From positions 248,001 through 312,000 of the forward strand of contig NZ_KZ672983.1 of assembly GCF_002970975.1 (NCBI RefSeq): DNA of 64,000 bases, written 5' to 3'. A program made the translations under genes and the position numbers. The notes beneath the pieces are model-generated. The model was not told the origin of the DNA. It searched no databases and saw only the letters and a program-made list of their open reading frames with translations. This document shows positions 40,443 through 40,621 of this stretch, piece by piece. Source of the DNA: Microbacterium halophytorum (lineage in GTDB: Bacteria; Actinomycetota; Actinomycetes; Actinomycetales; Microbacteriaceae). Each line of letters starts with the position of its first letter. Position 1 is the first letter of the stretch.

Positions 40443-40480
40443 GGCGGTGCGGGATGCGCCCCTGCGCATCCCGCACCGCC
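40443..40480. terminator. Terminator hairpin downstream of the isomerase-like gene
   Basis: A 17-bp perfect stem (40443-40459 with 40464-40480) closes a CCCT loop between two same-direction genes. In the undisturbed genome it would begin right after the stop of the isomerase-fold gene, separating it from the MBL-fold gene. Confidence 0.75.
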
Positions 40481-40621
40481 AGCTTCACACGCCCTGGCGC
40501 TTCAGGGCGGGGGGGATGGGCGTTTCCTTCCCGGGGGGGGGGGGGGGGGGGGGGGGGGGGGGGGGGGGCCCCCCCCCCCCCCCCCCCCCACCGCCAGCTT
40601 CACACGCCCTGGCGCTTCAGG
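40474..40621. other. Probable assembly or sequencing artefact: 33-bp duplication around a G36/C21 homopolymer block
   Basis: The same 33 nt occur at 40474-40506 and 40589-40621. Between them lie a short unrelated segment (40507-40532), then 36 consecutive G (40533-40568) and 21 consecutive C (40569-40589). Long G runs joined to C runs are typical of two-colour sequencing dark-cycle reads joined in assembly. Removing one copy and the block (115 bp) restores a simple junction and leaves both flanking genes intact. Confidence 0.85.

Follow-up and report, generated by a model that had tools for sequence, protein, structure and literature searches.

The G36/C21 block in the draft genome of Microbacterium halophytorum is, with a probability of roughly 0.95, an artefact of assembly, and a version of this reading in which the block arose from the poly-G tails of reads made with two-colour chemistry is probable. 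The view of the first-pass annotation that the block reflects a sequence or assembly error is strongly supported, both by the placement at assembly edges of the remaining long G runs in this genome and by the 62-bp gap found between the same two genes in a relative of the same genus (G451). An artefact of this type is ordinary in kind and says nothing about the organism; devoid of biological meaning, it illustrates well a kind of misjoin that carries no Ns and is missed by gap counts.

Anatomy of the block and length of the intergenic gap

In the window (the whole stretch of 64,000 nucleotides that was analysed), which contains no Ns, the G36 run abuts the C21 run with zero spacer, and the block sits between two minus-strand genes, both unbroken (Table 1). 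The two runs had been described together with a flanking 33-bp duplication, and all of these elements are present in the sequence at exactly the positions tabulated here; the putative decaying stretch and the hairpin of Table 1 go beyond that description. The two 33-bp copies are identical and lie 115 bp apart from start to start; the last C of the C21 run is also the first base of copy 2 (40589), and the stop codon of the TIM-barrel gene (40600) falls inside the same copy. The pattern of 16 G followed directly by 16 C (G16C16) occurs at this single place in the 3.33-Mb, 20-contig assembly.

Table 1. Features at and around the G36/C21 block, with positions in the window
Feature	Position	Strand	Remark
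Metallo-beta-lactamase (MBL) fold gene (PF00753), downstream	39469..40422	-	Start at 40422; unbroken
Intergenic perfect hairpin (stem 17 bp, loop 4 nt)	40443..40480	.	DNA fold -28.7 kcal/mol, z -8.9
33-bp direct repeat, copy 1, end of the left piece	40474..40506	+	
Putative decaying read tail, a continuation with bases increasingly called G	40507..40532	+	
G36 run, probable no-signal tail of rightward read(s)	40533..40568	+	
C21 run (G21 on the minus strand), probable leftward no-signal tail	40569..40589	-	
33-bp repeat, copy 2, continuous with the intact upstream gene	40589..40621	+	
115-bp presumed false insertion	40507..40621	.	One of the equivalent registers between the 33-bp copies; without these 115 bp the 177-bp gap shrinks to the 62 bp of G451
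Xylose-isomerase-like TIM-barrel gene (PF01261), upstream of the hairpin	40600..41514	-	Unbroken; start codon picked from the translation

The earlier expectation that the true sequence is about 115 bp shorter is likewise strongly supported by the length of the gap in G451, where the same two genes are adjacent (locus L138) and encode proteins 93% and 78% identical to those of the window. The intergenic gap of the window measures 177 bp, and subtraction of 115 bp leaves 62 bp, an exact match to the gap of this one relative, on which the comparison rests. A tblastn search of ten loci detected the MBL gene in L139-L143 and the TIM-barrel gene only in L138 and in the genome's own locus (L137), so that L139-L143 give no test of gap length.

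Long G runs elsewhere in the same assembly are confined to its edges. Four other places carry G runs of 11 or more, six runs in total, and all four are edges: on contigs C1, C2 (at 359121) and C8 the place is separated from a 10-N gap by about 50 bp at most, and that on C15 stands at the very start of the contig. The three 10-N gaps themselves (L167 on C1, L168 on C8 and L169 on C2) are bordered by G/C noise, and the flanks of L167 and L168 contain short inverted arms.

Probable read tails, the neighbouring hairpin and known sequencing errors

The stretch that follows copy 1 seems to retain a trace of the sequence that follows copy 2. Each of its first 17 letters is either the base found at the corresponding position after copy 2 or a G, a match equalled at 75 of the 127,679 other places compared on the two strands of the window, under a test designed after the pattern was noticed; the last 9 of the 26 letters do not fit a decay toward G. 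Plain identity across all 26 letters (40507-40532) amounts to 12 matches, a weak result reached at 3,051 of 63,705 places, and gapped alignment performs no better than chance, with 1,668 of 3,000 random places attaining its score. Neither was significant as a test of decay, and both were replaced by the base-or-G test; the evidence for decay is therefore confined to the first 17 letters. Eight of the 14 mismatches are changes to G, three of them from A, and the six that are not fall within the last 9 letters. On the other side of the block, the minus strand enters the hairpin arm (GGCGGT) and passes at once into G21.

These features can be accommodated by a single sequence of events. Short reads nearing the 17-bp GC-rich hairpin from both sides would have lost signal, and, as a two-colour instrument calls no signal as G, poly-G would have formed the tail of each read. 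The rightward tail may have produced the decaying stretch and the G36 run, whereas the leftward tail would have failed after GGCGGT in the hairpin arm and, once reverse complemented, appeared as C21. The 33-bp stretch would be present twice because both reads covered the same 33 bp; the G tails would then have survived trimming, and the two dead ends would have been joined without Ns, lengthening the sequence by 115 bp. From the assembled letters we infer the platform with its two-colour chemistry, the trigger in the hairpin or in GGC, and the joining step that left no Ns.

The hairpin shares 7 bases with copy 1 and, with the block left out of the comparison, ranks among the three longest perfect hairpins of the window (loop of 3-10 nt). 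It is likely to be real sequence and is suspected of having triggered the read failure. Two longer perfect hairpins of the window, with 18-bp stems and 4-nt loops (20736-20775 and 31090-31129), carry no G/C block, so a hairpin alone is not sufficient to give one. The 62-bp gap of G451 contains a different hairpin, with a TTCG loop; to judge from this one relative, a hairpin at the intergenic site therefore seems to be kept, although its sequence is not. A role as intrinsic terminator was rejected, there being no T-run terminator at the hairpin and the sole terminator-like site between 38000 and 43000 lying at 39069. A known RNA element was likewise rejected, as an Rfam search of 40000-41000 returned no match at gathering scores.

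Illumina sequencing is reportedly prone to sequence-specific errors associated with GGC motifs and inverted repeats, as Nakamura is said to have described in 2011. The passages on NextSeq data in the AfterQC paper (PMC5374548) describe polyX reads with high quality scores, mostly polyG, G being the base called without light. The block resembles these reads in its long G runs, in the no-light base and in escaping normal quality filters; it differs from what those passages describe in that it is seen here only in an assembly, with tails from opposite strands joined as G36/C21. The same passages report very few A/G errors for NextSeq, which counts against two-colour decay in view of the three changes from A to G noted above. 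For MiSeq, parts of another study (PMC4872057) record falls in coverage at some GGCNG motifs; secondary structure did not account for the dip, and of 12 CCNGCC motifs only 2 showed a drop. Sections of PMC4719071 link higher rates of Illumina indel errors to GC-rich sequence, most of all GGCGGG, and to the surroundings of inverted repeats; the portions of PMC4053816 that deal with inverted repeats name them only for older cloning-based methods. The start of the putative leftward tail just after GGCGGT, in a hairpin arm, may resemble the GGC and inverted-repeat errors of PMC4872057 and PMC4719071, and GGC also precedes block edges in other genomes about threefold above expectation. The relevant parts of these two papers deal with errors and coverage drops and not with poly-G/poly-C blocks that are joined. 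A non-exhaustive literature search, by title, found no description of poly-G/poly-C joins in assembled genomes.

Poly-G/poly-C joins in other genomes

A scan for G16C16 in a collection that represents each of about 85,000 species by one genome yielded at least 120 stretches. When the first block of each locus is taken among the matches listed, 78 of 120 stand no more than 350 bp from a contig end, where 4.3% would be expected; of the 42 others, 11 have an N-run no more than 150 bp away, against 1.3% for random places in the same loci. These two groups place 89 of the 120 loci at assembly edges. Together with the four of four places in the genome's own assembly, these 78 loci put long G runs at ends, as seen at the level of the assembly only. 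Records named 'Scaffold' make up 17 of the 42 inner loci and 3 of the 78 terminal loci among the matches listed (p 7e-7, two lower-case 'scaffold_' records, both terminal, being counted as other). In a family sample of 398 genomes, the own genome included, G14C14 was found in 10 genomes (21 places) and the reverse order, C14G14, in 7 genomes (11 places), and G/C mixtures were also found.

Of 120 clean block edges, defined as edges without nearby short runs, 24 have the trinucleotide GGC directly in front of them, compared with 6.6% expected (p 9e-7, 100 loci), as do 31 of all 149 edges, compared with 6.8% expected, edges from one genome not being independent of each other. Six of 155 edges had been dropped because they ended in G or held an N, and a further 29 were dropped for the clean set. 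Among the other trinucleotides, CGC (p 0.034) and GTC (p 0.018) stand out when all edges are considered, GCC and GGT are not significant, and none of the four reaches 0.05 in the clean set. The edges of the window itself end in AGG (rightward) and GGT (leftward), not in GGC, which occurs three bases before the leftward edge.

Of 50 inner block sites, 8 have inverted arms on their flanks at p<=0.05, compared with 2.5 expected; 87 of 137 sites had been dropped for want of 400 bp on both sides. The 50 include the window and three N-gaps of its own genome; two of these gaps count among the 8, and the other six of the 8 belong to other genomes. The window gave p 0.51 in this test because both arms of its hairpin lie left of the block. 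With such modest support, a hairpin was rejected as the general cause of G/C blocks. Flank duplication was rejected as their general mark, since, among 99 rows with at least 50 nt on either side of the block, only the window showed a long direct repeat of complex sequence in its flanks; that table holds at least one contig twice (L113/L129).

Whether poly-G/poly-C joins form a recurrent and recognisable class of draft-genome error, with edges that mark GGC and, in part, strong hairpins, is an evenly balanced question. If they do, a simple scan for G/C joins would flag hidden misjoins without Ns and point to real hairpins. The numbers of public G16C16 stretches and of family genomes with G14C14 suggest that draft-genome quality checks could therefore screen for such joins.

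Alternative origins and genomic setting

An artefact of the same class could have another source, such as four-colour or other-platform G/C noise, or gap-filling or polishing; this is unlikely, but it takes an appreciable minority share of the artefact reading. The excess of 'Scaffold' records among inner blocks points to a scaffolding or gap-filling step, and the existence of G/C mixtures and of the C14G14 order also speaks for such a source. However, the first 17 letters after copy 1 stay in register, each the expected base or G, a pattern more in keeping with a read tail than with made-up filler, and the two-colour poly-G version is preferred.

A genuine 33-bp duplication accompanied by a homopolymer insertion in the living genome is in line with the deposited letters, which show the block, and with the lack of Ns in the window. 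This reading is nevertheless rejected as very improbable, because the gap of G451 equals that of the window less 115 bp; the location of the other long G runs at assembly edges and the decaying copy after copy 1 also argue against it. More remote still is a phase-variable contingency tract of poly-G, lying close to where the MBL-fold gene begins. Poly-G tracts near genes are phase-variable in some bacteria, which is the point in its favour; against it, such a tract is absent from the corresponding gap of G451, the sole relative with the gene pair, the 8 further genomes of the genus in the family sample all lack G14C14, and the G36 run is fused to poly-C and bordered by a copied stretch. The assembly artefact thus remains the reading under which the block is best understood.

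The surrounding region (37199-44667) is a run of genes resembling a sugar or organic-acid catabolic cluster, with two Gfo/Idh/MocA oxidoreductases, the xylose-isomerase-like protein and the MBL-fold protein; from their translations, other open reading frames here presumably encode a CoA-transferase, an enolase-superfamily enzyme and a GntR-type regulator. Two mechanically called open reading frames on the plus strand (39214-41598 and 40292-40723) cross the block, where they read as poly-Gly and then poly-Pro, and false proteins derived from G/C blocks of this kind could get into databases.
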